Source of the DNA: Halorhodospira halochloris | GTDB taxonomy: Bacteria > Pseudomonadota > Gammaproteobacteria > Nitrococcales > Halorhodospiraceae | NCBI RefSeq assembly: GCF_002356555.2 | Contig: NZ_AP017372.2 | Location: 2,710,501-2,774,500, forward strand | DNA: 64,000 nucleotides | Reading direction: 5' to 3' | Shown here: positions 32,866 through 52,593 of the stretch, in pieces | Layout: every line of letters begins with the position of its first letter | How positions within the stretch are numbered: the stretch's first letter is position 1 | Position numbers and translations under genes: made by a program | Notes under the pieces: generated by a model | Database searches by the model: none | What the model was told of the DNA's origin: nothing | The model's input: the letters and a program-made list of their open reading frames with translations, nothing else

Positions 32866-34346
32866 TGGAAGAGATCCCGTTCGCCTTTGCCCGCCGTAAC
32901 GGCCTACTCCCTTTGGAGGCTGGCGAGGAGCAGGTGCGGGTGGCTTATCGCGGTGGGGTAAAGCCTAGCGCTATTGCTGAATTGCGCCGCCGCTTACAGC
33001 GCCCCCTGACCCTGGAGCGCGTCGATAACGAGCGCTTCGAGTCACTACTGCGCGAGGTCTACGAGCGCTCTTCCGGCGAAGCGGCTCAGGCCATGGAGGG
33101 CATCGGTGAAGACATGGACCTACAGCGGGTCGCCAGTGAACTCGCCGAGCCGCAAGATCTTATGGAGACCGAGGACGACGCCCCGGTTATCCGTCTGATC
33201 AACGCCCTGCTGACCGAGGCAATCAAGGAGGAGGCTTCGGATATCCATATCGAGACCTTCGAAAGCCGCCTAGTGGTCCGCTTCCGGGTCGATGGGGTGC
33301 TGCGCGAAGTGCTGGAACCGCCGCCGGGGCTAGCCCCGCTACTGATATCGCGGGTCAAGGTCATGGCCAGGCTCGATATTGCCGAAAAACGCCTGCCCCA
33401 GGATGGGCGGATTTCGCTGCGCATCGCCGGTCGGCCGGTCGACGTGCGCGTCTCGACTCTACCGGTGGGTCAAGGCGAGAGGGTGGTTCTGCGCCTACTC
33501 GATAAACAGGCCGGCAGGTTGGATCTCACCCATCTCGGCATGGACAGCGATACACTAGCTCGCTTACAGCGCATCATCCACCGCCCGCACGGTATCTTAC
33601 TGGTCACCGGCCCTACCGGTTCGGGTAAGACCACTACCCTGTATGCCGCATTGGCAGCAATCAATGATCGCCAGCGCAACATCATGACGGTGGAGGACCC
33701 GATTGAATACTACATCGATGGCGTCAACCAGACCCAGATCAATACCAAGATCGATATGACCTTTGCCCGCGGGCTGCGCGCCATCCTGCGCCAGGACCCC
33801 GATGTCGTTATGGTCGGCGAGATCCGCGACGCCGAGACCATGGAGATCGGTATCCAGGCCTCTTTGACCGGACACCTAGTCCTCTCGACGCTGCATACCA
33901 ACACCGCAATCGGCGCCGTAACCCGCTTACGCGACATGGGCATTGAGCCGTTCTTACTCGCCTCTAGCCTGATCGGGGTAATGGCGCAGCGCTTAGTCCG
34001 GCTGCTCTGCCCTCACTGCCGGAAGCCTTATACGGCGAGCGAGGCCGATCTTGCCAAGCTCGGTGTGAAGCGTTCTGGAACCGGCGAGCAATCCACTATA
34101 ACTCTTTATGACGCGGTTGGCTGCGAGGCCTGCAACCACCTCGGCTTTCGTGGCCGGACCGGGATCTACGATGTCATTGAGATCGATGCCAACCTCAGGC
34201 AAATGATCCACGATGGTACCGGCGAGCACGAGTTGGAGAGGTACGCCCGCGAAAGCGCCCCGTCGATGAGCCAAGATGGCGCTCGGCGGGTGTTGCAGGG
34301 GGATACCACCCTAGCCGAGGTTTTGCGAGTCACTCAAGCCGAATAG
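32865..34346 (+). CDS. gspE: Type II secretion system ATPase GspE
   Basis: A 493-residue traffic ATPase. N-terminal N2E-like region, then Walker A GPTGSGKTTTLYAAL, Asp box (EDPIEYYIDGVNQTQ), Walker B QDPDVVMVGEIRDAET, His box LVLSTLHTNTA and the zinc-binding four-Cys region (CPHCRKPY and CEACNHLGF). All catalytic motifs are intact. It is the last gene of the operon, and no gspK, gspL or gspM follows. A palindromic repeat begins 6 bp after the stop. Confidence 0.96.
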   Translation: MEEIPFAFARRNGLLPLEAGEEQVRVAYRGGVKPSAIAELRRRLQRPLTLERVDNERFESLLREVYERSSGEAAQAMEGIGEDMDLQRVASELAEPQDLMETEDDAPVIRLINALLTEAIKEEASDIHIETFESRLVVRFRVDGVLREVLEPPPGLAPLLISRVKVMARLDIAEKRLPQDGRISLRIAGRPVDVRVSTLPVGQGERVVLRLLDKQAGRLDLTHLGMDSDTLARLQRIIHRPHGILLVTGPTGSGKTTTLYAALAAINDRQRNIMTVEDPIEYYIDGVNQTQINTKIDMTFARGLRAILRQDPDVVMVGEIRDAETMEIGIQASLTGHLVLSTLHTNTAIGAVTRLRDMGIEPFLLASSLIGVMAQRLVRLLCPHCRKPYTASEADLAKLGVKRSGTGEQSTITLYDAVGCEACNHLGFRGRTGIYDVIEIDANLRQMIHDGTGEHELERYARESAPSMSQDGARRVLQGDTTLAEVLRVTQAE

Positions 34347-34352: not shown

Positions 34353-34493
34353 CCTCCAAAACTTCCCTTGAGCCTATTGGCTGCCCGGCGTGGAGGCTTT
34401 GGCGCCAAGGATGGCGCTGAGTAGCCTCCAGAGATGGATTTACGGCGTCCTCCACTCCGGGGCAGCAAAATGGCTAGGTGGGTGGTTTAGAGG
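34353..34493. repeat. Palindromic repeat copy 4 (inverted orientation, imperfect arms)
   Basis: Left arm 34353-34396 and right arm 34449-34493 pair imperfectly. The core contains GGCGCCAAGGATGGCGC and GATTTACGGCGTCCTCC, so it is oriented opposite to copies 1, 3 and 6. It begins 6 bp after gspE. Its right arm is shared with copy 5, 14 kb away, and lies at the edge of the envelope-gene island. Confidence 0.85.
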
Positions 34494-34511
34494 CTCGAGT
34501 AGAATCCAGCC
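34443..34511. repeat. Left direct repeat bordering the envelope island
   Basis: This ~69-bp stretch, starting in the right arm of palindrome copy 4 and running past it to GAATCCAGCC, aligns with 48807-48877 in the same orientation. The two share CGTCCTCCACTCCGGGGCAG and, beyond the palindrome, GAGTAG followed by a CAGCC end. The match extending outside the palindrome sets this pair apart from other copies. Confidence 0.7.
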
Positions 34512-36742
34512 TATCGTGGAAGCACTCGCCCCAACCGAAAACCTACGTCCGGGCTCCCTCCACCCCTATAGGAGTGTTTCTCTTCACCCGGCTGTGGCCC
34601 GGTGGAATAACTGGGACCTACGATGCCGACGTGAGGAAAGCGCAAATCTGGAGCCCTGCACAATTCGCTGACATTTCCTCCCAAGTTTGCCGCACCGATT
34701 GATGCCTCTGGAGATTCGGTTACTTTACGTACACCGCCATGGAGATTTTCCACGCAATCTTCTCCGCATTCAGGGTTATTCCCCCAAACATATTCTTGTT
34801 GTCCACCACAAGTGGAGACATATTGCATTACTGAGCAGTCAATAGTATCAAGTTCGACACCTGTTTGCTGAGTCATCCACTCGGAAAACTCCAGTGCTCC
34901 CTCCCATCTCACACAACGTATAGGATATTTGCCACCTTTCTCGGACTCACTTAACCTCTCTAAACAATTCTCATCTAAGTAGTTATCCATTTCTACATGC
35001 TGATCGTTGGCAAATGCTTCAAAAAGATCCCAACTAACCTCATGAGTCATCAATTCTATGTTGTCCTCAGCTCCCTCGTAATGGGTACTTCCACGCACCC
35101 TCACCGTCTCTATTTGGTGATTTTCTCCTCCAACTGTAAATTCATAGACTTCTCCGCCCAACTTCAGTTGGCCACAAACATCTTCGGGTTCAACCACAAA
35201 ATCGAATGCAGCGACTACGCCGAGATTTTGACCGTCACTATAAGGTATGATTTTCACTTGGTCATAAACTGTATGTAGCTGATCAACCCGAACATCTTGC
35301 TCTAGGCCGGTTTGACCAAGGGTTCTATCTATAGTCCCTCCCGTTTCAACAGCCAGCGACTCTATCTCCCCCAGAATGTGCCTCGTAGTAAAATTTATCA
35401 ACATAACATCGGCTACATCCATGGTTTCCAACTCCCTTTTGAAAACCATTCTATTTTTTACGCCTTCACTCGCTAACTGTTGTTGTTTATCTGACAGGTG
35501 TCTTGCCATACAGCTTAGATTGTTGCAGTCCGGAAAGGCCTCAGCCAACTCTCTACCTCTTTGTTGTGCAGACTCCATCTGCTGATTTATTTTTTCTAGT
35601 AACTCGGCAATATCATGTTGCTTCTTATTTATCTTTTCAGATTTGGCATCGAGATCACCGAAGTTGTTTTTGGCTTCAAACACCTTCTCCACACAATCCG
35701 ATTGGCTTGAAAACACGCGTTCAAGCTCTTCTCTTAAACTATCTTCAGATGATTCAAGTAAGTTTTTTACCCTAATAGACCCGGTTCTGCCCTCAGTATC
35801 CTTCGTACGTTGTCCGTCATTAACAGCAGCACCGGACAAAGATGCCTGTTCATCACTCCTATCTGGCTGGCGAAAAGGGAAAAACTCAAATTCACCTAAA
35901 AAAAGATATCCGAGTTCACCCTCGCTAAACTCGTGACACTCATCGCGGTCCGTTACCCTAGATCCCAACGACCCGAAAGTAACTTCACGTATAGTTTCAT
36001 CGTATTCCCATTCCGCACCGTGTTCAACCAAAGTCGATACGGCGTCTATATCTGTTGTTCCGTACTCCTCAACTATGCCGAAGGTAATCTTTTCCCGAAA
36101 ACTCTGTAGCAGTTCTTGTCTAGCCTTTCGATCCCCTTTATAAACACTCAGCACCGGTACTTCTATAGACAAGTCATGGTGCGGCTGTAGTTCTCTTGCA
36201 AAGACATGCTGGGCTAACGCATCAGGATCAACCTTCTGATCTGGCTCAACTTCTAAAGATTCTTGTAAATAATCAATATGGCTGGCAAGCTCATTCAAGC
36301 TATCAACTCCAGCATCTACTTCAGCCTCCAGCTGTTCTTCGCTTAATCTTCTCTTCAGCTTCTCGGCCTCACCCTTAGACAAGAACTGCATTGAATCAAC
36401 CTGATCTAATATTTCTACCGATGTCAATCTCTCTTGAACGCGTGACGCATCATCTAAATACTCTAAATCAACGACCAAGTGATTCTGGGAGCTATATACA
36501 CACGTCGCTACTAGTGTAAAGCTGATGAGGAAACTTATTTGCAGAAAAGACTGGCGACTCCTAAGATTAGCAATTTGACGTCGCTTGTTATGTCGCTGAC
36601 GAGGAATGAATTGCTTAAGCCGCCTCATAATCCCATAAAACGCATTATTGATAGCATACAAGCTGTCTGGATAACCAGGTTGCGTCACCCTAAAATAATC
36701 CAGCGTAGTTTCCGATTTTATACCCTTACTCATAGATCTCAT
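34511..36742 (-). CDS. Membrane-anchored coiled-coil protein with degenerate formylglycine-generating-enzyme-like (SUMF1) domain
   Basis: A 743-residue protein of no family I recognise over most of its length. A basic N-terminal segment is followed by one membrane helix (about residues 67-84), which could also act as a signal anchor from an internal ATG at 36628. Next come a long acidic periplasmic region with a coiled coil (around residues 345-420), and a C-terminal SUMF1/FGE-like domain (about 565-743) with MTHEVSWDLFEAF, VRWEGALEFSEWM, GGNVSEL and the RGGGSPDVGFRLGR end. The segment between RGG and GFR, which in true FGE carries the catalytic cysteines, is deleted, so catalysis is unlikely and a binding role is inferred. 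Last gene of the island, overlapping the lipoprotein gene by 17 bp. Confidence 0.7.
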   Translation of the reverse strand: MRSMSKGIKSETTLDYFRVTQPGYPDSLYAINNAFYGIMRRLKQFIPRQRHNKRRQIANLRSRQSFLQISFLISFTLVATCVYSSQNHLVVDLEYLDDASRVQERLTSVEILDQVDSMQFLSKGEAEKLKRRLSEEQLEAEVDAGVDSLNELASHIDYLQESLEVEPDQKVDPDALAQHVFARELQPHHDLSIEVPVLSVYKGDRKARQELLQSFREKITFGIVEEYGTTDIDAVSTLVEHGAEWEYDETIREVTFGSLGSRVTDRDECHEFSEGELGYLFLGEFEFFPFRQPDRSDEQASLSGAAVNDGQRTKDTEGRTGSIRVKNLLESSEDSLREELERVFSSQSDCVEKVFEAKNNFGDLDAKSEKINKKQHDIAELLEKINQQMESAQQRGRELAEAFPDCNNLSCMARHLSDKQQQLASEGVKNRMVFKRELETMDVADVMLINFTTRHILGEIESLAVETGGTIDRTLGQTGLEQDVRVDQLHTVYDQVKIIPYSDGQNLGVVAAFDFVVEPEDVCGQLKLGGEVYEFTVGGENHQIETVRVRGSTHYEGAEDNIELMTHEVSWDLFEAFANDQHVEMDNYLDENCLERLSESEKGGKYPIRCVRWEGALEFSEWMTQQTGVELDTIDCSVMQYVSTCGGQQEYVWGNNPECGEDCVENLHGGVRKVTESPEASIGAANLGGNVSELCRAPDLRFPHVGIVGPSYSTGPQPGEEKHSYRGGGSPDVGFRLGRVLPR

Positions 36743-37472
36743 CTCTGATCTTCTCCAGCTTTTCTCTATACTCCTCTGGATATCGATCTAGATTCGTGGT
36801 TGACAGCTCATGCCTAAGTCTTTCTAAGTCACTATCCAGCAGCAAGTCGATCTGCTCACTAACGGGATCTGCAGAATACTTATAAGTCAACACATCAGTC
36901 TCATCATTTTTTTGCATTGGTTGCCAGTAGAATTCAAAATCTCGATATTCCGACTGCACTCTGAACTCATTGCCATCCCCATCATAATCTTTTCCACTTC
37001 CGCTTATAGTCAAGCTATACCTAGCTGGGGAATCAATCATATAAACGCCTATCGGGCGAATCATGACAATCAATTCATTTAAGGGATCATTCCAAAAATA
37101 ATCCGCACTTGGGGCCAGAATGCGCTCTAGCCCTGCTTGCTCAACACTTAATTCAACACTCATCACCTCGCTGAGGCTAGCAACCGGAATCCTGAATATC
37201 ACAGGTTCTGCAAGCTCGGAAACCGCAACTTGTATCTTTGAGCTATCTTCATGTAGTTCTATATCGTGAAGTGGATCAACAGCATCTACAAACTCTCGTG
37301 CATCCTGCAAGCGGGCATATTCACGCTCCGTCAACTCTTCCTTTAGCGGATCCTCTTCTGGCTCTCTATCGAAAAGGCCACAGGATGACGCCAGGAGAAT
37401 AAAAGTTAATGATACAGTAACTATGTATAGAGACATTAATTTATTCTTAAAAACGCGCATAATCGCCCTCAA
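36726..37472 (-). CDS. Lipoprotein of unknown family
   Basis: About 244-248 residues (ATG at 37460 or 37472). The signal peptide ends in the lipobox LLASSC, followed by an acidic linker with DREPEEDPLKEELTEREYARL and a beta-rich domain (PVIFRIPVASLSEVMSVELSVEQAG, then YSLTISGSGKDYDGDGNEF). I see no known domain. The Ser at +2 after the Cys is absent (Gly, Leu follow), so outer-membrane localisation by the Lol system is expected. It overlaps the preceding and following genes of the island, which indicates tight cotranslation. Confidence 0.72.
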   Translation of the reverse strand: MRAIMRVFKNKLMSLYIVTVSLTFILLASSCGLFDREPEEDPLKEELTEREYARLQDAREFVDAVDPLHDIELHEDSSKIQVAVSELAEPVIFRIPVASLSEVMSVELSVEQAGLERILAPSADYFWNDPLNELIVMIRPIGVYMIDSPARYSLTISGSGKDYDGDGNEFRVQSEYRDFEFYWQPMQKNDETDVLTYKYSADPVSEQIDLLLDSDLERLRHELSTTNLDRYPEEYREKLEKIRDEIYE

Positions 37473-37938
37473 TCACACCTAGCTCGGCTTGGTGCCTAAG
37501 CAACTCAGTAATGGCAATTACGATAGATTGATAACTATCATCCTCGATGTCGAACGCACCTACCATACTGCCCCCTTCAATCTCTTCACTGGTCTCAACA
37601 TCTATCGTTGTGTGCCCTCCCTCAACACCGAACCTACGCTCCTGCAATACATGAGCTACAGTGCAGTTATTTTCCTCCAGCCAGGCGGCTGTGGCCTGTA
37701 ATTCTTCCCACTTACTCTCATCGCCTTGGATAATCCTTAGCTCATCGCTACCACCCTCATAGTACCTCAGCTCATCCCTTAGTCTTTCTTCTAACCTACT
37801 GGAATCAATTAAGATCTCAGGCTCCAGGTAGACGCAGGCCACTTCACTCGCTTGTACTACTGTTGGTATTGATGTAACTAATACTAGCACCAAAGAGCAG
37901 AATGTCTTGGTAATAAGGTGGCTTATTGATGATTTCAT
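37447..37938 (-). CDS. Secreted protein of unknown function
   Basis: 163 residues with a signal peptide (hydrophobic about residues 12-29, cleavage after VQA). The mature part has a mixed alpha/beta pattern: ACVYLEPEILIDSSRLEERLRDEL, then NNCTVAHVLQERRF, and a C-terminal helix. The layout (a strand, a helix, then a strand with Cys) resembles small periplasmic CsgG/TolB-N-like folds, but I cannot support that by a motif. Two Cys in the mature protein could form a disulfide. It lies 13 bp after the ABC ATPase gene. Confidence 0.6.
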   Translation of the reverse strand: MKSSISHLITKTFCSLVLVLVTSIPTVVQASEVACVYLEPEILIDSSRLEERLRDELRYYEGGSDELRIIQGDESKWEELQATAAWLEENNCTVAHVLQERRFGVEGGHTTIDVETSEEIEGGSMVGAFDIEDDSYQSIVIAITELLRHQAELGVIEGDYARF

Positions 37939-37951
37939 ATTTTTTATCTCT

Positions 37952-38668
37952 TTAATCTTCAGCAGGGATCAATTCATTAGCGCTCAGGTAGTATGAATTA
38001 TTAATCATAGAATCATGCCTAAGATATTCTTTGTGCGTAATCAAAAGAAGCGCTTTACTGCTGCCCTCTATATGCTCTTTCACTCTTGACCAAACTTGCT
38101 GTTCAGCATCGAAATTAAAAGATCGTAATAGCTCATCAGCGAATATGTAATCGACATCTAGCATCATACATCGAGCTATTGAGACAATTTCCTTCTGCCC
38201 ATTTGAAAGCGCCTCTAGAGGTTTACGCTCTAGCTCCCCTAACGTCAAAAACCCCATAGGGTTGTTATCAACCTCTGCCCCGAAATCCAGCAGTTCCCGG
38301 ACATAATTATAGCGCTTCATAACAGTTTTTTTGTTAATTTTGGCAAAGAGAGCTGGCAACATTACATTGTCTCTTATACTCAACCCCTCAAGAAAGAAGA
38401 ATGTTGAGTGTATCATCGAGATATGGTTCGATCTCAGCTTATTAGCCTGATGGCACGATTTAACAGGTCCGCTCGGCCATGATACCTCACCATAACTAGG
38501 CGCCATCAAATATGACAACATTTTCATAAAAACAGTCTTTCCAGACCCAGAGGGACCACAAATCACAACCCTTTGTGAAGGAGCAAGACGAAAATCTACG
38601 TCTTTTTTGTAAAGGGTATCACCGCCTTTACCAAAGTACACATTAACACCATTAGCAAGTATACCCAT
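37952..38668 (-). CDS. ABC transporter ATP-binding protein (LolD/MacB-type, atypical Q-loop)
   Basis: About 238 residues. Walker A GPSGSGKT, signature LSNGQKEIVSIARCM, Walker B DYIFADEL with the catalytic Glu, and H-loop LLLITHKE are present. The Q-loop region reads NHISMIHSTFFFLEGLSIRDN, where the usual Gln is replaced by His. The ATG at 38668 has an AGGGAG box 6 nt upstream and is preferred over 38692, which would overlap the permease gene. It follows two genes for permeases with the MacB/LolC layout, so the three form one type VII ABC transporter. Confidence 0.88.
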   Translation of the reverse strand: MGILANGVNVYFGKGGDTLYKKDVDFRLAPSQRVVICGPSGSGKTVFMKMLSYLMAPSYGEVSWPSGPVKSCHQANKLRSNHISMIHSTFFFLEGLSIRDNVMLPALFAKINKKTVMKRYNYVRELLDFGAEVDNNPMGFLTLGELERKPLEALSNGQKEIVSIARCMMLDVDYIFADELLRSFNFDAEQQVWSRVKEHIEGSSKALLLITHKEYLRHDSMINNSYYLSANELIPAED

Positions 38669-38678
38669 GGGTAACTCC

Positions 38679-40187
38679 CTATGACCTCTCAAGCTGCCGG
38701 AACATAAACCACTCCGTCACTGATAATATAATCAGCAAAGCAATCAGATATAAAGCCGCTAATAACAATGAAAAAGTTTGGTATGGCAGCTCTGGGAAGT
38801 AGTAGGACTGCAGCAAATGATTCAATGCATAATGCGCTACAGCGTGTCCAAGTGCAGAAACGACGAAACTCACTAGCATGGCAACCGCAATTGCACTGCT
38901 AAACAAGCACCACCTAAAACCATTAAGCTTCAAAAAGTAGATTTGCTTCCCGTATGCATCATAAAACTTTTTGAGCCCTACAAACATCATGAATATCATT
39001 AGTGCGGCGACAGAAGCTATTAATGCATATATTCCAGTATTTATGTCTCGTGCATGCCTGTCAGCTGCACCGACCATTTCGCTTCTACTGTAAAGGTTTA
39101 CACCATTTAGAGCGATATCTTGAGCTACAGAATCATAAATCAAAGCCACATATTGAATGTCTTCTGCTAAATCCCCAACCAACCGCTCGAAAGTGTTTTC
39201 ATTAACTATCAGAAAATTTTCACTTGCAGCTAATTCACCATAATCCACATCAAGCGGAAAATTTATCTGACTGCTAATATATGCATCCTTTTCGGCACCA
39301 TCGAATCCAGCTCTTACGACGGACAAAGCCCTAGCTGCGAGGAACTCATACAACGACTCCGAAGCCAAAGCGTAGTGCGCATCTCGTGCGGTGCCAATAC
39401 CTAAATCAAGAATAGCACTAACTCCATCTCGTAGATGATTATCGAAATAGGCAAGCTCTCTGTCCTCATGACAGTCGAGTCCAGATTCACTCGGAGCAAT
39501 GGGTATAGTATCTGAAGGCAGAATACCCTGCGCCATATCTCTAATCTCTAGATTAAATTTGTTTACACGCGCAGCATCTGCATCTGAGCACGATGAGTAC
39601 AGCAGTTCTGCCTTTCTATCATGCTGGCGATGGATTTCTATAGGAACTTGAGCATCTCCCAGGACTAAGTAAAGGTCATTATAATTCTCAAAGTAGTCAT
39701 CAAAACCATCAACCGCCATAATCCAACCAGTGCCGGTATCCCTCAGCTCAGTGAGACGATACTCTTCACCGGCACCTTGCTCTTTACTGCTCTTAATTAT
39801 CACGTGAGAATGCTTGTCTTTAGCAATTTCGAAATCCAGGCCCAGAACCGCTGTATCTCCAACCCGTACAGTTCCACTTGGCAGGTTTATTGCTGCATCA
39901 TCGATGATGGCTAATTTTCCAGTAAGATAATTATCGTGCTCTCTTTTAAAGTTTTGAATTTTTTCTTCTAGAGGCTCATCACTTACCGCTAAATTGTTTG
40001 GTATTGCCCCATAACGCAGTTGATGGTAGTAATCGTAAAATCCGCTGCCCGTGTGCAACAGCATGAGGAGCATCAGGCCGGCTGATAATGCAAGAGAGAA
40101 ACCTAAAACTGTTAATGCATTAAGCCGCAGCAGGGATATACCAGCCTTTATGTAGCCGTAGTTAACCATTGTATTGAACAAGCCCAC
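38679..40187 (-). CDS. ABC transporter permease 2, FtsX/MacB/LolC-like topology
   Basis: A 502-residue protein. One N-terminal helix (about residues 20-45), a large periplasmic domain of about 330 residues, then three helices near the C-terminus (about 390-410, 425-450, 475-495). This 1+3 arrangement is that of MacB, LolC/E and FtsX permeases, which couple ATP hydrolysis to movements of the periplasmic domain rather than carrying substrate through the membrane. The periplasmic part contains Cys pairs (SSCSDADAA and GLDCHEDREL). It overlaps permease 1 by 26 bp and precedes the ATPase gene. Confidence 0.78.
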   Translation of the reverse strand: MGLFNTMVNYGYIKAGISLLRLNALTVLGFSLALSAGLMLLMLLHTGSGFYDYYHQLRYGAIPNNLAVSDEPLEEKIQNFKREHDNYLTGKLAIIDDAAINLPSGTVRVGDTAVLGLDFEIAKDKHSHVIIKSSKEQGAGEEYRLTELRDTGTGWIMAVDGFDDYFENYNDLYLVLGDAQVPIEIHRQHDRKAELLYSSCSDADAARVNKFNLEIRDMAQGILPSDTIPIAPSESGLDCHEDRELAYFDNHLRDGVSAILDLGIGTARDAHYALASESLYEFLAARALSVVRAGFDGAEKDAYISSQINFPLDVDYGELAASENFLIVNENTFERLVGDLAEDIQYVALIYDSVAQDIALNGVNLYSRSEMVGAADRHARDINTGIYALIASVAALMIFMMFVGLKKFYDAYGKQIYFLKLNGFRWCLFSSAIAVAMLVSFVVSALGHAVAHYALNHLLQSYYFPELPYQTFSLLLAALYLIALLIILSVTEWFMFRQLERS

Positions 40188-41241
40188 GGTAAAATTTATA
40201 CGACATGTACCCTAGTGCAAGCATGGCTACAGAGGCATACGTCAGTAACACGATCCATAGGTAATCATAATCTGGTTCAGCATAACGGTGCCATTGCGCA
40301 ATGGTTTCTCCCCAAAACCCTGTAGCTCCCTTAAACAAAAGCCAACTACCAAGCAGTACGCTTATGAATACTACAGTCAATATCCCAATTGTCCCTACCG
40401 CAGTCCTCAATGCTCCAAGGCCATAATGCGCAGATAAAGCCAACAAGGATGACAATTCACGCATAACGTCACTTGATATGATGATCAACGCCGTAAAGAT
40501 CATAATCCCGAAAAGCACGAAAAACAGCACTGCCGAACTCTCTGTTACAACTAATGCGATCTGCCGCGGAAATGATATATCATCCCGCCATGTTCGCACG
40601 CTTATTCCATATTCTGAGTAAGTACTTACTAGCTCAGCACTCACATCTTGATGGAGGGGCCTTATTATGTGCGCGTTAGCCAAGCGCTCGGGAAATAGGT
40701 CTTCGGCGATATGATTACTGATAAGCAACCAAGCATGATCATCGACGAGGCCATCCAACGGTTTTATATCAACTTTTACCTCGTTAGCCCCGTATGCTAA
40801 CGTTACCTTCTCAGCACCGAGCAGGCGATCATGGAGAACGTCATTGACATAAACCGTGGCATTTCTTTCGTTCCGCGAATCAACACCTCGCAACGCGTTG
40901 GGCTTGTAGTCACGTGAGTAACTACGCACGCCTGTACGCTGAATCACATAGTTTTGCTCACTCCCTTTAGGTCGGTATGAAAGACCCTCAATTTGAAACT
41001 CAAATATCACCCGATCGTGATAATACCCCTGAGGGGGATCTATTTCATCACCAGCTCTAAAGTAATTTTCAGGAAAAAACCCTCTAATCTTCTCAACTAT
41101 ATGTTCGTTATAGGCAACCGTGTGGCTATGAATAAACGCTGATCCACCAAAAAAGAGACAGACAAAAGCAAACAATATCACCTGGTCACTGCGTAAGAAG
41201 ATATTGCGCGCTACCTCAGCGTAAACTCTAAGCCAGCTCAC
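40162..41241 (-). CDS. ABC transporter permease 1, FtsX/MacB/LolC-like topology
   Basis: A 359-residue protein starting with GTG. One N-terminal helix (about residues 18-36), a periplasmic domain of ~195 residues, and three C-terminal helices (about 235-260, 285-310, 330-348). It is clearly different in sequence from permease 2, so the transporter would be a heterodimer as in LolCE rather than a MacB-type homodimer. It lies first in the ABC trio after a 127-bp gap, the largest gap inside the island, so a secondary promoter there is possible. Confidence 0.76.
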   Translation of the reverse strand: MSWLRVYAEVARNIFLRSDQVILFAFVCLFFGGSAFIHSHTVAYNEHIVEKIRGFFPENYFRAGDEIDPPQGYYHDRVIFEFQIEGLSYRPKGSEQNYVIQRTGVRSYSRDYKPNALRGVDSRNERNATVYVNDVLHDRLLGAEKVTLAYGANEVKVDIKPLDGLVDDHAWLLISNHIAEDLFPERLANAHIIRPLHQDVSAELVSTYSEYGISVRTWRDDISFPRQIALVVTESSAVLFFVLFGIMIFTALIIISSDVMRELSSLLALSAHYGLGALRTAVGTIGILTVVFISVLLGSWLLFKGATGFWGETIAQWHRYAEPDYDYLWIVLLTYASVAMLALGYMSYKFYRGLVQYNG

Positions 41242-41368
41242 TACTCAAACACCCAATGTAATCCGGCACCCAATTTCCTCAGCTCCCGCATTTTTTGGTT
41301 GACTTAGCACTGCAACCATGCCTATGAAGCCTTCTTTTAGAATTTACCAGCTAATAACACGAACACCC

Positions 41369-42055
41369 CTAAAGCTCTGCTTGCTCTTCTGACTTTTCTT
41401 CCGAATCCGAATCCTCATAACCGAGCAAAACTTTCTTCAATTTAAGCACGATCCACTCGCGCAGCAGTTCTTCCTCAGATTCTGACCCGGCCACACCTAA
41501 TCGCACTTTTTTGGATAAATGCTCACCTTCTTCACAGCTAAAGACATTCGCCTGCATCTCTAGAACATCAATGAAATCACTTTCTGCATGCTCACTAACG
41601 TCACCGAAGGACATTGGGCTATACGCCAATGAAGATACGCCCACACGTTCACAAAGCTCTTGTAAGTACTCCCCGCCTTCGTCGCCTTTGCGCTTATAAA
41701 ATGTACTTATCTCATCCTTATTAGCCGGGTGCGGGGGGACAATTTCGTGTACAGAAATGATTTCATCGGAGCTATCAACACTACTGTTGTGTTCTGCGAC
41801 GGCATCGCTCTTGATATCATAAAAGGATGAGCCGAAGTGCAATAAGTCATCCTCAACATCACCGAGCTGATTGTCTTCATTGTACTCGAACGAAAACAAC
41901 TCTGAAGGAACCAGCAGGAGCGATCTTTCCGCAGCGATGCAGCCACTCCACGCGAGGCCCATAAACAGTACAGCTATCCCCAAACACCTTTTTCGCATCA
42001 TTAAATCTGTTATACGCATATCTGACTGTTTTTCCTGTGCATTTTTTAATCCCAC
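41369..42055 (-). CDS. Secreted acidic protein of unknown function
   Basis: Up to 228 residues. A GTG at 42055 abuts the upstream stop, but ATG codons at 42019 and 42001 would place the signal peptide (hydrophobic core CLGIAVLFMGLAW) closer to the N-terminus and are likelier. Cleavage after CIAA gives a strongly acidic mature protein with three Cys and an acidic C-terminal tail rich in Glu and Ser. The pattern CIAA fits a normal signal peptidase site better than a lipobox. No known domain recognised. Confidence 0.6.
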   Translation of the reverse strand: MGLKNAQEKQSDMRITDLMMRKRCLGIAVLFMGLAWSGCIAAERSLLLVPSELFSFEYNEDNQLGDVEDDLLHFGSSFYDIKSDAVAEHNSSVDSSDEIISVHEIVPPHPANKDEISTFYKRKGDEGGEYLQELCERVGVSSLAYSPMSFGDVSEHAESDFIDVLEMQANVFSCEEGEHLSKKVRLGVAGSESEEELLREWIVLKLKKVLLGYEDSDSEEKSEEQAEL

Positions 42056-42772
42056 TTAGAACATATCGTCGCCGTCGCCTGCCTCGCCTCCCTCGCCATT
42101 CCCGCCTCCGGAACCACGACCGGCGTGGCTAGCCCCTTCAAGAACCGCTCTTACCGCGCTTGTGGCCTGCTCCTCAATCAGAAGCCGCATCTCTTCCATC
42201 TGGAAGGCATCGACAACGTCCCGAGGAATTTGTGCCTCTCTACTGGCTGTAGCCCCAGTACCGGTGTAATATGCGCGGACCAGGAAGCTTAGATCGTCAA
42301 TCACGTTTTGCCTGAATAGCATCAGCGGCCTGGGCGGTATATCCGTCCAAACGACGATTTCGGCATCGTTATAGTCCAAGAAATCCCTTCGAAAGCCGTC
42401 GCCGTGGGCTCTTTCACTTTCGGTGAAGTGCTCAAGCGCAGGGGCATTCAATCTAGCTGGCAATAACCTATACTCGTCTCCTTCAAATTCGAGTACGCCG
42501 TCCTCAAAATTGAAATTTTCATCGCGCATCTCTGTAGCAAGCATTGAGCTTGTGTTGCGCAGCAGAGGATAGGTAAACCCTAATACCTCACTTATTATCG
42601 CTCCCTCAAGGTCGCCTCTCCTAGCGCCCTCCCCAATCGACTCCTCGTAGCCAGATGCGAAGACCACCTTGGTTTGCTCCTCATCGGCGCTAGCGGCTGC
42701 ACACCAAACAAGGAGCAAAAGCGCGAGTGCTGCGGGCTTTAATATGGGAGATCTCGACTCATAAACAGCCAT
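42056..42772 (-). CDS. Secreted protein of unknown function with Gly-rich acidic tail
   Basis: 238 residues. The signal peptide (hydrophobic about residues 13-28) ends at CAAASA/DEEQ. A mixed domain contains FNFEDGVLEFEGDEYRLLPARL and AEIVVWTDIPPRPLMLF. The last ~25 residues are a flexible tail of Gly, Asp and Glu ending DDMF. I recognise no family. It starts inside the end of the 585-residue gene (14-bp overlap). Confidence 0.6.
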   Translation of the reverse strand: MAVYESRSPILKPAALALLLLVWCAAASADEEQTKVVFASGYEESIGEGARRGDLEGAIISEVLGFTYPLLRNTSSMLATEMRDENFNFEDGVLEFEGDEYRLLPARLNAPALEHFTESERAHGDGFRRDFLDYNDAEIVVWTDIPPRPLMLFRQNVIDDLSFLVRAYYTGTGATASREAQIPRDVVDAFQMEEMRLLIEEQATSAVRAVLEGASHAGRGSGGGNGEGGEAGDGDDMF

Positions 42773-44516
42773 CTGCCCCCCCGTCCAACTTTGACCTTAT
42801 TGCCCTGAAAGACACTTCAGTTCCGTCTACCTGAGGTTCACCGCTGCCCACTATGTCGATATCGGGATACTTATCGTGAACATTTTCAACCAGATCATCG
42901 GCTGATAAACCCGAGGTTACCGAAAAGTCGAAAGCGCAGAGATTGCCACTATGCTGGTAATCGATTTGGCTAGCACCCAGTCGCCTCTCTGCGTAGCTTT
43001 CGCAAGTATGCTGATTTATGCTTTCATAACTGGAGCTGAATACATATGTAGCATCTTTTAGGGTTTCGCCTGCACGCATCTCTAGGTCACCTGGCGATAA
43101 ATCCCCCTGGTCAGCGTTGTAGCGGTCCACTAGGGCAAATACCGCCCCTTGCTGAATCTGTCCAGACCCAACCTCTTCGCGCCGCTCGATGCGTGCCGTT
43201 GTTCTCGGTGGGCCCTGTTCGGGACCAAATGACCTTATATCGACTTGAACAACATTCCCATCGACGGTCTCATTGATAGCTTCCGCTACCGCGTCTTGCC
43301 CCCGCTCCTGGCCATCACAGACAAAGGCTGCCGAGTAAGTGTCAGCCTCGCACTGCTGATAGCCACCAACACTCTCCAACAGTTCTCGTACCTGATGCGC
43401 GCGATAGGTTCTTTCCATGCGCTGGATCCGCTCAGTGCAGTCATCATTATACTCCCACTGTTGAATTCGTGGTTTCAAAGCCTCACAGGCTTCATGGTGG
43501 GAAATCTCAACCGCGATACCATCTCCACCCGAGTCCATATCAGCGGCTCTCCCACCCTCTAAAAGCGACCTAACGTAGCTTGCAAATTCTGAAGAATCTT
43601 TCGATGGGTTGCTGATATACCGCTCACCACTATAAGTGACCCTATATTCACCTCCTGGACGCTTATCGACACCCGCTAGGTGAGTAGCGACGCCTGTAGT
43701 CTGCGCATCAACTTTATCCTCAGCAGCTTCAACGATCTGGTCCTCGAAATCTATCCGCTTCTCTCCCTCTGTCCCAATACCCAGCAACTCTAACGACCAA
43801 CGCCCTGAGCCGGCATTGACCTTGACCGGAAAGCGATCGTTATAAATCTTAAAATGCAACAACTCCCCTTGATCGCCCCCAGCACGCCTGTATACACTTT
43901 TATTCACTGGGCACTCCCCTAGGTGGGTTCGCACCGTGGTATTATCACCCTCTTCATGTTTTAGCCTGTACAACCTGTCGGCTATCGGGATGTAGTACAT
44001 AAATTCCTGAAATTTTTCGCCCGTTAAGTGGCTCAGAATTAGCGCCTCGGTATCGGTAGTAGGTTTGTGTGACGTATAGTTATATATTGGTGATGAGCGT
44101 ATTTCATCAACTATAATAGAGCTTTGCGCGATCTCATCTTCATTGTATAAGCCAGCGCGCTGCAGAAAGGCCTCATCTTTATCGCTGAGATCATAGTGAA
44201 AACTGATCTCCTGCTCGCCATCCTGCTCCAAGTAGCGAAGTCGAATTGGCTCTTCACTATCAACTTGAACGTTTTTATCGTCTGAGTAGAATGGAAGGCG
44301 ATCGTCTTGGGTAACCCCATATAACTCGGTCTCTAATTCATCACCTTCCTTCAGCAAACGCATTACGCCTACCGTGTCGTTGTCAATAGAAATCAGATAC
44401 CGCATCTCGTAGTCTTCATTCCAGCTAAATGCATGCGCCGCTGGCATAGCTGCTATGCCCACAATCACCATAGTCAGCACTATAAAAACCGGAACAGACT
44501 CGCTTCTCATCTTCAC
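42759..44516 (-). CDS. Large secreted protein, N-terminal DUF3108-like region
   Basis: 585 residues with a signal peptide (cleavage near AHA/FSW). Residues ~35-260 (YEMRYLISIDNDTVGVMRL, then YYIPIADRLYRLKHEEGDN and NDRFPVKVNAGSGRWSLELLGI) have the strand pattern of DUF3108-type periplasmic/outer-envelope proteins, a weak call. The remainder has several Cys (EACEALK, DDCTERI, QQCEAD, VCDG, HTCESY, NLCAF), likely disulfide-bonded, and two repeated domain-like units each followed by a VDIRSFGP/DIDIVGSGEP strand. The ATG overlaps the stop of the upstream gene (ATGA). Confidence 0.6.
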   Translation of the reverse strand: MKMRSESVPVFIVLTMVIVGIAAMPAAHAFSWNEDYEMRYLISIDNDTVGVMRLLKEGDELETELYGVTQDDRLPFYSDDKNVQVDSEEPIRLRYLEQDGEQEISFHYDLSDKDEAFLQRAGLYNEDEIAQSSIIVDEIRSSPIYNYTSHKPTTDTEALILSHLTGEKFQEFMYYIPIADRLYRLKHEEGDNTTVRTHLGECPVNKSVYRRAGGDQGELLHFKIYNDRFPVKVNAGSGRWSLELLGIGTEGEKRIDFEDQIVEAAEDKVDAQTTGVATHLAGVDKRPGGEYRVTYSGERYISNPSKDSSEFASYVRSLLEGGRAADMDSGGDGIAVEISHHEACEALKPRIQQWEYNDDCTERIQRMERTYRAHQVRELLESVGGYQQCEADTYSAAFVCDGQERGQDAVAEAINETVDGNVVQVDIRSFGPEQGPPRTTARIERREEVGSGQIQQGAVFALVDRYNADQGDLSPGDLEMRAGETLKDATYVFSSSYESINQHTCESYAERRLGASQIDYQHSGNLCAFDFSVTSGLSADDLVENVHDKYPDIDIVGSGEPQVDGTEVSFRAIRSKLDGGADGCL

Positions 44517-45253
44517 TCTCCTCCAAGCTTGACTCGCGGCGGAACCAGCGCAAAACGCTCTTGTGCTTCAATTCGTCCCTCCTCCCCAACGGCGGCATCC
44601 AGCTGCAACTCTTCTTTAGCCACCTCACCTTGACTAATGTCACCCAAATCAGCCACTGCCACTGGATCGCTCGAATCATTGCCAGTCGCGGTTCCAATCT
44701 CTACTGATAAACTAGTCAGATCAGCAACCGCTGGAGCCCCATCTGCAGCATGTCGCCCATTAGAAGCCTGAACCCGCAGCTGATCCGTCGCTTCACCATC
44801 GCCGTGGGGCTCTTCATTTGAACCACCAATATGTTCGACAACTATTACCGAGCGCGGCGGCATTGCCCGCCTGATAGATTTACCTACCTCGATCGGATCG
44901 TAGTCCAACTCCCGAGTCGTTTGGCGTGGCTCCCGACGCGGACCATGAGCTCCTGCTACCATCTGGTAGCAGGTCATGTCGTAGCTAACTTGCGCAGGCT
45001 CAGCACCAAGCTCTTCAATCGCGATCTCTAGGCTATCATTAGCCGCCTCGTACTCACCCTCTTCTTTCTTATCAGCAGCTTCCCAGTACGCACTAATGGC
45101 CTCACCCATTAGATCATCATTAAACTCACAATCCTCCGCTCCGGCAATACCTGCATGGAATAGCGCACTTCCCGCGTAAAAACACAAACAGCAGCCAGCC
45201 AGTTTTACCTGCGCAAAAGCTCCCTTTTTGAGTGCATGACCAAACTGAATCAT
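44513..45253 (-). CDS. Secreted protein of unknown function
   Basis: About 246 residues. The ATG at 45253 overlaps the TGA of the FadL-like gene as ATGA, the usual coupled start, and is preferred to 45268. A signal peptide (hydrophobic about residues 20-38, with Cys) is followed by a helical hairpin that resembles a TPR-like unit (DLMGEAISAYWEAADKKEEGEYEAANDSLEIAIEEL), then a long low-complexity acidic region. Its own stop overlaps the next ATG by four bases. Family unknown. Confidence 0.6.
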   Translation of the reverse strand: MIQFGHALKKGAFAQVKLAGCCLCFYAGSALFHAGIAGAEDCEFNDDLMGEAISAYWEAADKKEEGEYEAANDSLEIAIEELGAEPAQVSYDMTCYQMVAGAHGPRREPRQTTRELDYDPIEVGKSIRRAMPPRSVIVVEHIGGSNEEPHGDGEATDQLRVQASNGRHAADGAPAVADLTSLSVEIGTATGNDSSDPVAVADLGDISQGEVAKEELQLDAAVGEEGRIEAQERFALVPPRVKLGGE

Positions 45254-46350
45254 GGCGAGCGCACCCAATTCATTGATATAGATGATAAGACTTCATCGTA
45301 GTCTTCCCCTCCAGCGATGGTATTCTCCCGCGCCTCGAAGGCAAGCTCTAAGCTCAACTCGCCGTGCTCCCGAATAGCATTAAACCCAATGCCGAGTGTC
45401 GCCCCATCAGAATCTATCGCGTCCGATGTTGAGCTGTAATAGCCACTCCTAAATGACAGACTACCGCCAGCTAAACCCAATTCTAGGCCTACGCTATTAG
45501 TCTCCATGTCATCATATTCTGTAGTAACCGCTTCATAACCCGTTTCTCTGTGCGATGCAGTCAGAGACACTAGGTATCCCGTGCCTTGGTAGTGCATTGC
45601 AGCACCATAAGAGACCTCTTCAGGCAGTCCCCATGGCTGTTTTGATACTGGACTGTCCATACTCCCATCTACATCAAATACTTCAGCCTCATCAAATGTC
45701 GCCTCGCTGCGATATGATCCACCCAGATCGAAACTAAATGTACGAGTATCTACAATGCGGGCTTTTAGACCTGCCACCCCAAAGAACTCTTCATCAGAAT
45801 AATCGTCTTCTTCGTCTTCACGCCAGTCTGCTGAACTCTCTAGGTAACCAGCCGATGCTCCGAGGCTTATGAATAGGCCTTCGCCGTGCTCTGCCCTGTC
45901 GCTAATATCCCAGCCAAAACCGACCATATAGGCGTCTAACTCTTGAGCGTTTTCATCGCCGTGGGATACCTCCCAAATAGGGGAGTACATAAACCCATAG
46001 GACAGTGTTGGAGTTAATGCAGCCATCCCAAGCATGTAGTTATCAACCTTGTCACCTGTTGGGCCAGCTGCCGCCTGCACCGACTGTGAATATTCAAGGC
46101 TTGAGACCACCTGTTGTTGGGTTTGTATCTCCCCTTCAGCATCTTCCCAGACAAAATCAGGCCGTACCATCGCCGCAGGATTATAAAGGAGACTAGACAC
46201 ATTCCCTGGTGCCGCGGTGAATGCGCCGCCCATGCTCGTAGCCTTTGTGCCGGGATAACTAATCAAGGGGTCCGCGATGGCATCCCCCACCTTGCATGCC
46301 GTAATTACGCAGCCAATCACGAGGGCCTGTCTCACCTTGCTGTCTCTCAT
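45250..46350 (-). CDS. FadL/OmpP1-like outer-membrane beta-barrel
   Basis: About 366 residues. After a signal peptide the N-terminal hatch motif reads TKATSMGGAFTAAPGNVSSLLYNPAAM, the OmpP1/FadL/TodX signature in which MGGAFTA and NPAA are diagnostic. The rest alternates as amphipathic strands with highly acidic loops, as in halophiles. FadL-type channels pass hydrophobic compounds through a lateral opening. The start at 46350 overlaps the LPP20-like gene's stop as ATGA. In this cluster it may be a structural or transport part of the machine. Confidence 0.75.
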   Translation of the reverse strand: MRDSKVRQALVIGCVITACKVGDAIADPLISYPGTKATSMGGAFTAAPGNVSSLLYNPAAMVRPDFVWEDAEGEIQTQQQVVSSLEYSQSVQAAAGPTGDKVDNYMLGMAALTPTLSYGFMYSPIWEVSHGDENAQELDAYMVGFGWDISDRAEHGEGLFISLGASAGYLESSADWREDEEDDYSDEEFFGVAGLKARIVDTRTFSFDLGGSYRSEATFDEAEVFDVDGSMDSPVSKQPWGLPEEVSYGAAMHYQGTGYLVSLTASHRETGYEAVTTEYDDMETNSVGLELGLAGGSLSFRSGYYSSTSDAIDSDGATLGIGFNAIREHGELSLELAFEARENTIAGGEDYDEVLSSISMNWVRSP

Positions 46351-46799
46351 TGCGCTACCACCCAATAATAGACTGTCCCATCATCCGGATCTTCCCACTC
46401 TTCCTTTACCTCAACGCCTCCGAGCATACGATGGGAACGTTGTTGCACCTCGCTCCTGCGCTCACTTTGATCCCTATCCGAGCTAGCAACAACCTCTTCT
46501 TCTCCCTCAACCTGAACAGACCCCTGACGATTGATTTCAGCCTTAGCGCGCATCAGCGCGACTTCTTTGTCCTCATCGGCTTCTGCATAACCGACAGCAG
46601 CCCTTTTGCCCTTTACCCCGGGCTCTGTCACCCAGCGGGGCTGTTCTGCACTCGGGTCAGCGGCAGCTTCATCGGCTGCCTCGGCCTCACTTATTTCGGG
46701 TTGCCCAACTGGGGAAGCGCAACCGTACTGGCCAATACAGATCGCGCAACCTACAAGATATGCCGTAACTGGCTTCCCCCTAAGAACCGGTGTAATCAT
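46347..46799 (-). CDS. LPP20-family lipoprotein
   Basis: About 150 residues. The signal peptide ends in a possible lipobox around GQYGC. A Glu/Ala-rich linker leads to the LPP20 pattern: PRWVTEPGVKGKRAAVGYA, EVALMRAKAEINRQ, and the C-terminal RMLGGVEVKEEWEDPDDGTVYYWVV. LPP20 domains occur in surface lipoproteins and in flagellar outer-membrane components of Vibrio (FlgP-like). The ATG at 46799 has a GAGGG box 8 nt upstream and is preferred to the GTG at 46814. Confidence 0.75.
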   Translation of the reverse strand: MITPVLRGKPVTAYLVGCAICIGQYGCASPVGQPEISEAEAADEAAADPSAEQPRWVTEPGVKGKRAAVGYAEADEDKEVALMRAKAEINRQGSVQVEGEEEVVASSDRDQSERRSEVQQRSHRMLGGVEVKEEWEDPDDGTVYYWVVAQ

Positions 46800-46862
46800 T
46801 ACCACTACCCTCACCTACCAGAATTTATTGGTATGGCTTACACGGCGAGCCTATCAATCGCC

Positions 46863-47429
46863 TCAGAAGACATAGCGCAAACCAACAGTCGTTGAAATAA
46901 CCTCTGGAACCTCGTCGTCTTCTTCGCTGTATATCATGTACTCAGCGGATACCCACAAATCCCTCAAAAGGTTCAACCCCACCGCAGCGCCGTAAGACGG
47001 ACCAAAACTGGGATCAGTTACTAGACCCTCTGCACTGACCTGTACCGCAGCGACTCCAGCCAGCAATTCCGCTGACAGAGCGCGTCCGGATAGACGTGCC
47101 CGGTAGTGGATTGCGCTGAGTGTATCGATTTCGGTTTCACTGTCTTCATCAAGCTGGTAACCGATACGTCCTTCCAGTGCGTGGATGCCATCAGCACCGC
47201 CAAAATGCCCGCCCCCGCGAACTATAAGCACATCGCCGCTGTCGTCTTTCTCTCCATCTCCCTCACCAAGGCTAATATCTGTCTGTCCATAGTTTAAGTA
47301 AATATATGGGACAATCCCGCCCCTGTCATCGTTGTTTGCATAGGCCGCCGTAAAGCCCACAAAAAAAGCCCCAAGCAAAACCGACTTAGATACCAGCCTT
47401 GATGCCTCAACGCTCATCAGTGATTTCAT
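46863..47429 (-). CDS. Outer-membrane beta-barrel protein, YfaZ/OmpW-like size
   Basis: About 188 residues from the ATG at 47429 (a TTG at 47444 is less likely). A signal peptide ends at AYA/NND. The mature part has alternating strands with short acidic turns (YIYLNYGQTDISLGEGDGEKD, then HALEGRIGYQLDEDSETEIDTL) and a C-terminal phenylalanine (TTVGLRYVF), the sorting signal for the Bam machine. About eight strands are predicted. Close to the YfaZ layout, but no specific family is certain. Confidence 0.65.
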   Translation of the reverse strand: MKSLMSVEASRLVSKSVLLGAFFVGFTAAYANNDDRGGIVPYIYLNYGQTDISLGEGDGEKDDSGDVLIVRGGGHFGGADGIHALEGRIGYQLDEDSETEIDTLSAIHYRARLSGRALSAELLAGVAAVQVSAEGLVTDPSFGPSYGAAVGLNLLRDLWVSAEYMIYSEEDDEVPEVISTTVGLRYVF

Positions 47430-47479
47430 GATATGTAATCTCAACTTTCAGACCTTCAAACGCCAGTACTTCTTAATCA

Positions 47480-48148
47480 TCAGAAATACCGAACTACTCC
47501 AATACCGGAAGATTGAAGCTCCTGATCAAATGCATTTGCATTGTCCCCCCCCCAAGGATCATCAACCTCAAAGGCTTGAGTCTCGCTAAACATTGTTATT
47601 CCGGTGCTATCAGTAAGCGCCACCTGGGCACCAATCGAAAAACGGTAGCCGAAACCACCTCCTGTCTCATCATCTTCGGATCTAAATGATGCTGGTTCCC
47701 TTTCGGCACTCGCACTGCCATATATAAGCCCTAAGGTTCCAAATAAATCAAGGCCAGGGAGTATCTCGAAGGTAGCACGAGCACTACCGCCAAAGATTAA
47801 AAAATCTAACTCAAGATCTTCCGCATTAAATCCGGGAACGTAGGTCAAGTGCCCCTCGAAGCCTAACGTCCCAAGAAGCCCTATGTTAGTCCTACCTGGA
47901 TAACCTACTAGAGCGGAAATGCCTGTCTCTGTCTGCCCATGGAACTCCCTTTCAGGTGGATCACTAGCCAACCGTTCAATACCCCCGGCTTCCTCATAGG
48001 TGGTTTCTAAGTAGCTCAGCCCCCAATATGAAGATGTCGTTCCGAATACAGCCTTAGCTACGCCTGTTGATAACAAAAAGGGAAGCAACGCCAAAGCTGA
48101 AAACAACCTGATAAACAGGCGCGCATGCCGCAAACTTCTTGTATCCAT
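47480..48148 (-). CDS. Outer-membrane beta-barrel protein, first gene of the island
   Basis: 222 residues with a signal peptide (cleaved near VAKA/VFG) and an eight-stranded OmpA/OmpW-like barrel pattern (SYWGLSYLETTYEE, SALVGYPGRTNIGLLGTLGFEGHL, DLFGTLGLIYGSASAE), ending in Tyr-Phe. It begins the minus-strand gene set; the ~560 bp upstream must hold the main promoter. Like its neighbour it may be a lid, receptor or structural barrel. Confidence 0.65.
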   Translation of the reverse strand: MDTRSLRHARLFIRLFSALALLPFLLSTGVAKAVFGTTSSYWGLSYLETTYEEAGGIERLASDPPEREFHGQTETGISALVGYPGRTNIGLLGTLGFEGHLTYVPGFNAEDLELDFLIFGGSARATFEILPGLDLFGTLGLIYGSASAEREPASFRSEDDETGGGFGYRFSIGAQVALTDSTGITMFSETQAFEVDDPWGGDNANAFDQELQSSGIGVVRYF

Positions 48149-48712: not shown

Positions 48713-48859
48713 CTTCCAAAACTCCCCCGAATCCCCCAGAGCCACTTGCGCCCCAATGTGGAGATCTTTGCGTCATCAAGCCTTCTGAGATAGATTAACG
48801 GCGTATCGGCGTCCTCCACTCCGGGGCAGCAAAACGGCTAAGTGCGTAGTTTTAGAGGT
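48713..48859. repeat. Palindromic repeat copy 5 (inverted orientation, degenerate)
   Basis: The most decayed full-length copy. The left half (CTTCCAAAACTCCCCC...AATGTGGAG) and right half (CGTCCTCCACTCCGGGGCAG...GTTTTAGAGG) keep only partial pairing, and the core is diverged. Its right end overlaps the cysH stop codon, and it is in direct orientation to copy 4. Confidence 0.78.
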
Positions 48860-52461: not shown

Positions 52462-52593
52462 AAAACTCCCCCAGAGCCACTTGGCTGCCCCGCTGTGGAG
52501 GACGCCGTGAATCCATCCCTGGAGGCTTCATGGCGCCATCCATGGCGCCAAGACCTCCACAGCGGGGCAGCCAAGTGGCTCTGGGGGAGTTTT
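52462..52593. repeat. Palindromic repeat copy 6 (perfect 40-nt arms)
   Basis: Left arm 52462-52501 and right arm 52554-52593 are exact reverse complements over 40 nt. The 52-nt core 52502-52553 differs by one base from that of copy 3. Perfect arms suggest a recently formed or actively maintained copy. It separates the cysI promoter region from the 3' end of the electron-conduit operon. Confidence 0.95.

Follow-up and report, generated by a model that had tools for sequence, protein, structure and literature searches.

A 14-gene envelope island of Halorhodospira halochloris with a predicted type VII-like ABC unit and an FGE-domain protein: a possible trans-envelope complex

A set of 14 genes, designated g1 to g14 (Table 1), was analysed in a stretch of 64,000 nucleotides (the window) from the genome of the purple sulfur bacterium Halorhodospira halochloris (contig NZ_AP017372.2, positions 2,710,501 to 2,774,500). 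The genes lie at positions 34511–48148 of the window, all on the minus strand, and encode predicted outer-membrane barrels, putative lipoproteins, secreted proteins, an ATP-binding cassette (ABC) ATPase with two predicted permeases, and a membrane-anchored protein, g14, that ends in a domain resembling that of formylglycine-generating enzymes (FGE). The best reading of this set, to which we assign a probability of roughly 0.35, is that it specifies an ATP-driven trans-envelope complex in which g9, g10 and g11 would act mechanically on g14 and so sense or gate an outer-membrane structure. That reading is supported by the gene content and the shared strand, by the four-helix permeases, by an ATPase nearest to the LolD/BceA/MacB types and by the presence of the FGE domain on an anchored protein. 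The parts and their likely locations are read from the sequence; how the parts interact, that g14 forms a stalk, in which direction work is done and what results from it we infer. The genes may form one machine or two adjacent units, and overall confidence is moderate to low.

The 14 envelope genes on one strand named in a first-pass annotation of this DNA were all found at the place and on the strand that it had given. Stretches that stay free of stop codons for 150 codons or longer number 14 on the coding strand of the island; in 200 dinucleotide-preserving shuffles of the sequence they averaged 0.06, and no shuffle had more than one. A strong N-terminal hydrophobic segment was observed in 12 of the 14 proteins (the exceptions being g3 and g11) and in 7 of 27 other genes of the window, which were picked by hand for comparison. 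The segments were sought in the first 60 residues of each protein, and in the first 90 for g14.

The proposed mechanism is as follows. Binding of ATP by g11 would set the periplasmic parts of the two permeases in motion, and this would push or release the coiled-coil stalk of g14, whose FGE-like head would hold on to one of the lipoproteins or a barrel (g3, g13 or g4) on the outer-membrane side. The outcome would be the sensing or gating of an outer-membrane structure, of which the small secreted proteins g5–g8 and g12 might also be part. Such a mode of action would be like that of TagQRST or FtsEX-EnvC; membership of neither is claimed. We also put forward, more tentatively, that the island represents an undescribed, whole-envelope, type VII-like mechanotransmission machine, with an unlike pair of permeases, an FGE-fold binding head on a stalk, and barrels and lipoproteins of its own, occurring in one haloalkaliphilic phototroph lineage only.

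The predicted ABC unit and the g14 protein

The hydropathy profiles of g9 and g10 each contain one N-terminal helix, a long stretch and three C-terminal helices, situated in g9 at approximately residues 13–40, 226–261, 274–309 and 325–348. Four helices with a large domain between the first and the second, as deduced here from hydropathy, constitute the type VII ABC layout. A type VII ABC transporter with two permeases of MacB/LolC topology had been proposed at the outset, and the helix layout and the ATPase agree with that proposal; the FtsX model (PF02687), which is matched above its cut-off at six other places in the same genome, was not passed. The 'type VII' label rests, therefore, on helix layout and ATPase and not on a permease profile. 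A model of the g9 structure, predicted from the single sequence, was too poor for use (pLDDT 44.5), and the best E value in a fold search was 1.1. Comparison of g9 and g10 with a custom FtsX alignment using HHalign gave nothing, the alignment being poor and the queries single sequences. A match of g9 to the myxosortase MrtX (NCBIfam; 40 residues, E value 0.0015, 18.4 bits as against a cut-off of 180) was taken as chance.

The g11 protein matched PF00005 in Pfam with an E value of 2e–19. Among the many ABC models of NCBIfam its best score was for LolD (2.7e–19; 69.6 bits, with a cut-off of 307.75), and its PDB matches were BceA and MacB. It is classed on this basis as an ABC ATPase, nearest to the LolD, BceA and MacB types. 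Because Walker A, the signature (LSNGQ), Walker B with its glutamate and the H-loop are all retained, g11 probably still binds ATP. The Q-loop has serine in place of glutamine and the D-loop asparagine in place of aspartate. In 29 comparators drawn from g11's own matches, the Q-loop position was glutamine in 27 and serine in 2, and the D-loop position was aspartate in 27 and a gap in 2. The enzyme may work slowly, have a specialised role or have degenerated in part. Together, g9, g10 and g11 would constitute a heterodimeric type VII-like ABC unit that moves no cargo across the inner membrane.

Residues 561–700 of g14 matched PF03781 (FGE-sulfatase) at 24.0 bits, narrowly over the cut-off of 23.3, and this was the sole FGE-domain match in the genome. 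A single N-terminal membrane anchor is predicted by hydropathy, and a coiled coil at approximately residues 316–425 by a crude heptad count, in which residues 136–177 score alike. The earlier picture of an anchored coiled-coil protein with a SUMF1-like end was thus upheld for the anchor and, by Pfam, for the domain at its end, with the coiled coil coming from the heptad count and with part of the domain core lost.

That loss is apparent from the spacing of the RGG and GFR motifs. The alignment comprised 30 regions from FGE-domain matches, of which 24 show both motifs; the remaining six, in which one or both are missing, were dropped, as they are truncated apart from one that is unrelated. The spacing is exactly 26 residues in all 24 rows and 5 residues in g14, i.e. 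21 residues short. In true FGEs, the two catalytic cysteines sit between these motifs. No cysteine is present in this stretch in g14, nor in 22 of the 24 comparison rows, so that many of the latter are probably non-catalytic themselves. Because of the 21-residue deletion in its core, g14 is unlikely to be a sulfatase-modifying or formylglycine-generating enzyme, and the natural supposition is that its FGE-like head binds rather than catalyses. The closest solved relative by sequence is a weak one, the serine/threonine kinase ToxD (7spq; E value 0.012).

Outer-membrane and secreted proteins

Scores of 33.9 and 37.9 bits were obtained for g1 and g2, respectively, with the Pfam model PF13505 (OMP_b-brl; cut-off 28.7), and both are assigned as outer-membrane barrels of OmpA size. 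The g4 protein is probably an outer-membrane barrel too. It matched the NCBIfam model NF033709 (PorV/PorQ) with an E value of 6.6e–8 and 32.5 bits, under the curated cut-off of 90; no Pfam match and no solved structure related by sequence were found, and FilD, a FadL-type NCBIfam model, was matched at 0.089 only. Of three barrels originally counted, two are above cut-off and g4 is below it, and g4, which had been termed FadL-like, is better termed PorV/PorQ-like; we presume that the PorV/PorQ family belongs to the FadL superfamily.

The LPP20-like assignment of g3 likewise stands in part, in that the match to PF02169 is close to full length (model positions 1–95 of 97; 7.9e–5) and its score, 23.5 bits, is below the gathering cut-off of 25.9. 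The position of the g3 lipobox is ambiguous by eye and its hydrophobic segment falls slightly under the threshold. Both g3 and g13 look like lipoproteins.

No credible Pfam or NCBIfam family was found for g5, g6, g7, g8, g12 or g13, even when these were searched in parts at an E value of 10. Matches of g5 to a KDM8-like model (0.034), of g8 to Kv_beta (0.041) and of g13 to an NCBIfam LytA lipoprotein model (0.13) were taken as chance. Possible resemblances, of g6 to DUF3108 and of g7, g8 and g12 to TolB-N/CsgG-type domains, found no support in Pfam even at that permissive E value. A structure model of g12 from its single sequence was unusable (pLDDT 34.9), and comparison of the small secreted proteins among themselves by HHalign yielded nothing, such single sequences carrying little signal. 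Of the 10 island proteins (out of 14) submitted to PADLOC, only g11 was matched, its best match (mad3, 7.5e–13) being taken as that of a generic ATPase.

The inventory bears on an alternative in which the island moves hydrophobic cargo in the manner of Lol or YbbAP: g9, g10 and g11 would lift a lipid, a lipoprotein or some other hydrophobic molecule from the inner membrane, the secreted proteins would carry it, and g4 and the lipoproteins would receive it. The island resembles LolCDE in having two unlike permeases of similar layout with one ATPase, for which LolD is the top NCBIfam score, although that score is far under its cut-off. The match of g4 to a presumed FadL superfamily family would suit a receiving role. 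There is, however, no LolA/LolB, TesA or other recognised carrier family among the secreted proteins, the permeases are not detectably homologous to those of LolCDE, and the dedicated barrels and FGE protein set the island apart from that system; g14, moreover, would be left without a clear role. A precedent is offered by YbbAP, which is described as extracting hydrophobic compounds; according to the same source, what type VII ABC systems do is set by their partner proteins (PMC12646458). We regard such a route as possible, with the odds against it.

Table 1. Genes of the island, with positions in the window and predicted features
Gene	Position	Strand	Length and features
g1	47480..48148	-	222 aa; signal peptide; outer-membrane beta-barrel (PF13505)
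g2	46863..47444	-	193 aa; signal peptide; outer-membrane beta-barrel (PF13505)
g3	46347..46814	-	155 aa; LPP20-like putative lipoprotein (PF02169, below cut-off)
g4	45250..46365	-	371 aa; signal peptide; probable PorV/PorQ-like outer-membrane barrel (NF033709, below cut-off)
g5	44513..45268	-	251 aa; secreted, no family; N-terminal hydrophobic segment
g6	42759..44516	-	585 aa; secreted, 8 Cys, no family
g7	42056..42772	-	238 aa; secreted, no family
g8	41369..42055	-	228 aa; secreted or lipoprotein, no family
g9	40162..41241	-	359 aa; predicted permease, 4 helices, MacB/LolC layout
g10	38679..40187	-	502 aa; predicted permease, 4 helices, ~330 residues between helices 1 and 2
g11	37952..38692	-	246 aa; ABC ATPase, LolD/BceA/MacB-like, altered Q-loop and D-loop
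g12	37447..37938	-	163 aa; secreted, no family
g13	36726..37472	-	248 aa; putative lipoprotein (LASSC box, by eye), no family
g14	34511..36742	-	743 aa; membrane anchor ~64-85, probable coiled coil ~316-425, C-terminal FGE-like domain

Gene order, base composition and flanks

Overlaps of 4–26 bp, which had been ascribed to most of the genes, are present at 8 of the 13 junctions; at one further junction the genes abut, and at the other four they are separated by 13, 35, 48 and 127 bp. These counts use the starts of the longest open reading frames (ORFs), and several true starts may be situated a few codons later. The claim that the island is A+T-richer than its flanks was confirmed: the mean G+C content at third codon positions was 0.455 in the island and 0.602 in the 27 other genes of the window (Mann–Whitney p 2.8e–6, in a test that treats genes as independent, which neighbouring genes are not). 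Within the island, G+C content drops stepwise, from 0.48–0.55 in g1–g7 to 0.41–0.46 in g8–g14. This two-step composition could reflect two origins.

The largest gap, 127 bp, is at the g8/g9 junction (41242–41368) and could divide the island into two transcription units. It is conceivable, if doubtful, that the island is really two separate neighbouring units, an outer-membrane and secreted set (g1–g8) and an ABC plus FGE set (g9–g14), which were acquired together or successively. Consistent with this are the gap, the step in G+C content and the finding of the whole set together in no relative (see below). Against it, all of the genes are on a single strand, with tight spacing within each part, and g8 groups by composition with the second part, so that the step and the gap do not coincide. 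In addition, a consensus scan revealed no minus-strand promoter-like or terminator-like site within 41242–41368. Over the whole region the scan gave 26 promoter-like sites (shuffles, 20.5 ± 4.9) and 18 terminator-like sites (shuffles, 10.9 ± 3.5).

The island is flanked on one side by the end of what we take to be a type II secretion operon on the opposite strand, with a gspE-like ORF at 32865–34346, and on the other by genes that are presumably cysH-, cysB- and sulfite reductase-like. An interspersed repeat of approximately 98 bp was found at six places in the window: 34379–34476 (minus strand), 52475–52572 (plus strand), 18747–18828, 13002–13088, 2934–3016 and, as a 34-base piece, 48807–48840. 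At least 41 copies are present in the genome, 40 of 260 candidates having been scored. Since the repeat occurs genome-wide, its presence at both ends of the island was rejected as a mark of insertion.

An empty site was also sought by way of cysH. None was clean: the six relatives examined at cysH differ downstream of this gene both from the window and among themselves. Large ORFs, presumably carAB, follow cysH in two of them (G021, locus L061, and G022, locus L063), so that gene order varies between species. At locus L064, cysH is followed by relatives of window ORFs from 21.7–24.5 kb. A second A+T-richer patch of the window, at 14393–18663 (G+C content approximately 0.45–0.52 in 1-kb steps), contains a phosphatase-like ORF, two kinase-like ORFs and an MsbA-like ABC protein, as named by eye.

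Relatives and described systems

Whole-genome searches for relatives were performed with g6, g9, g10, g11 and g14, the class and phylum sets being samples and not censuses; g4, g7, g8 and g13 were run against a plasmid collection, and g1, g2, g3, g5 and g12 against profile libraries only. For g10, one weak match was obtained in 53 other genomes of the order (including 11 other genomes of the family, some only 77–83% complete). It is situated in a 126-residue ORF of genome G034, which we take to be CrcB, and was judged to be chance, leaving g10 with no ortholog in this set. No match to g9 was found in 368 other genomes of the class. Two weak matches to g6 in 397 other genomes of the phylum were both judged to be chance, one lying in a frame of 823 residues with a 441-residue ORF opposite it on the other strand, and the other in a presumed phosphoglycerate-mutase-like ORF.

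Matches to g14 were present in 44 of the 368 class genomes. Among the matches listed, all but one were confined to the FGE domain, the exception being a 50-residue N-terminal match with a stop codon within it. No ABC ATPase was found within the short flanks of 29 FGE loci (L014–L042). Matches to g11 at an E value of 1e–12 or better, with 24–34% identity, were present in 96 of the 368 genomes, a spread that is ordinary for the ABC superfamily; no ortholog of either g14 or g11 was recognised in that set. ATPase matches in Aeromonas, Burkholderia and Rhizobium had no further island relative within approximately 8 kb on either side. Over 89 loci, mostly with 1.5-kb flanks, matches to the island came only from g11-type ATPases (37 rows), FGE-type ORFs (30 rows) and the CrcB-like place (two rows). 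In the plasmid collection, g4, g6, g7, g8, g9, g10, g13 and g14 had no match and g11 had generic ones. No match was confirmed when contigs were scanned with g10 and g9, or when viral contigs were scanned with g6, g14 and g10, single-protein queries of this kind detecting only close relatives.

No related island was found, then, within the genomes searched, a statement that is not extended to nonexistence. Since no related neighbourhood was found, conserved co-occurrence cannot be shown, and the single trans-envelope machine envisaged in the first-pass annotation was not confirmed in this way; the island is the stranger for it and the claim of a machine the weaker. The island may be very young or very fast-changing.

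Literature searches, confined to open-licence papers, yielded no description of such a gene combination, in agreement with the earlier view that no described system has this composition. That view had not taken account of TagQRST, a close functional analogue, which among described systems comes nearest to combining an ABC unit with an FGE-domain protein and a lipoprotein. TagQRST is described as an envelope sensor that activates type VI secretion in Pseudomonas via the kinase PpkA (PMC6657622, PMC6565705, PMC10482370), in which TagR acts together with TagS/TagT and with TagQ, an outer-membrane lipoprotein (PMC6657622, PMC6565705). TagR is entered as an 'FGE-sulfatase domain-containing protein' (PMC7253367), and the four genes form a module inside the type VI secretion system (T6SS) locus (PMC6657622). 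The likeness consists in an ABC ATPase with a permease, an FGE-domain envelope protein and an outer-membrane lipoprotein (PMC6657622, PMC6565705, PMC7253367). The differences are several. TagQRST has one permease and the island two; TagR is periplasmic, whereas g14 is membrane-anchored, with a probable stalk and an FGE core that is shortened. The island, unlike TagQRST, also includes barrels, two or three in number, and five orphan secreted proteins; it is not beside T6SS genes, and no kinase-domain match in its genome exceeds the cut-off.

The genome has a T6SS of its own at approximately 2.05–2.08 Mb, where VipB is present and, of 10 ORFs scanned next to it, seven have families (TssA-type, IcmF, DotU, VasE, SciN, PAAR-like and DUF2169). 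A 1292-aa ORF at this locus (L059/L060), with a Tox-PAAR-like domain (PF13665) near its start, neighbours the DUF2169 ORF and three family-less ORFs. A search of the whole genome with the Pkinase profile gave nothing above the cut-off of 31.7; two significant rows fell under it (4.2e–7 and 1.5e–6; 29.8 and 28.0 bits; ORFs of 235 and 252 residues). With a T6SS in the genome and g14 as its only FGE-domain match, the island might be thought a sensor module for that system, as TagQRST is in Pseudomonas. This is improbable, given that no Pkinase match exceeds the cut-off and that the island is roughly 0.7 Mb from the T6SS genes, whereas TagQRST is encoded inside the T6SS locus (PMC6657622). The kinase result means that a standard TagQRST/PpkA switch is not involved, and for these two reasons, kinase and distance, the island is not filed under TagQRST.

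FtsEX-EnvC is like the island in that a four-helix permease and an ATPase act on a periplasmic partner, which in that system is a coiled coil. The island differs in having two unlike permeases, which fail the FtsX model, a partner with an FGE-like head, and outer-membrane parts. A type IX secretion-like system was also considered, composed of a PorV-like barrel (g4), a GldJ/GldK-like FGE protein (g14) and a GldAFG-like ABC unit. GldJ and GldK carry FGE domains, and GldAFG is an ABC unit. The NF033709 match of g4 and the FGE domain of g14 are consistent with such a system; g14, however, looks membrane-anchored, unlike a lipoprotein, and the island contains no further type IX family match beyond the generic FGE domain. 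No motor or translocon family was matched among the island proteins, the rest of the genome not having been searched for them. A type IX-like system is thus very improbable, and the T6SS sensor scarcely less so.

Several observations weigh against the complex proposed here, in which the ABC unit would act on g14. The g10 protein scored 12.1 bits with PF02687 (cut-off 25.5; model positions 3–116 of 120) and was one of 30 below-cut-off rows in 12 genomes of the family, 23 of which had better E values; g9 was not among the matches listed. The changes in the Q-loop and D-loop of g11 might signal a weak or dead ATPase, and the gap at g8/g9, with the step in G+C content nearby, interrupts the set. 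The likeness to TagQRST, furthermore, is one of gene content, and, as no homologous neighbourhood was found, there is no evolutionary evidence for joint action of the 14 genes.

If the island does encode one machine, it would widen the range of work known to be powered by ABC proteins of the MacB/Lol/FtsX layout. It would also provide a second context for the pairing of an FGE domain with an ABC unit that is found in type VI signalling, here apparently without a PpkA-type kinase. As a 14-gene envelope system without detected relatives, it would, finally, bear on the question of how rapidly such machines originate or diverge.

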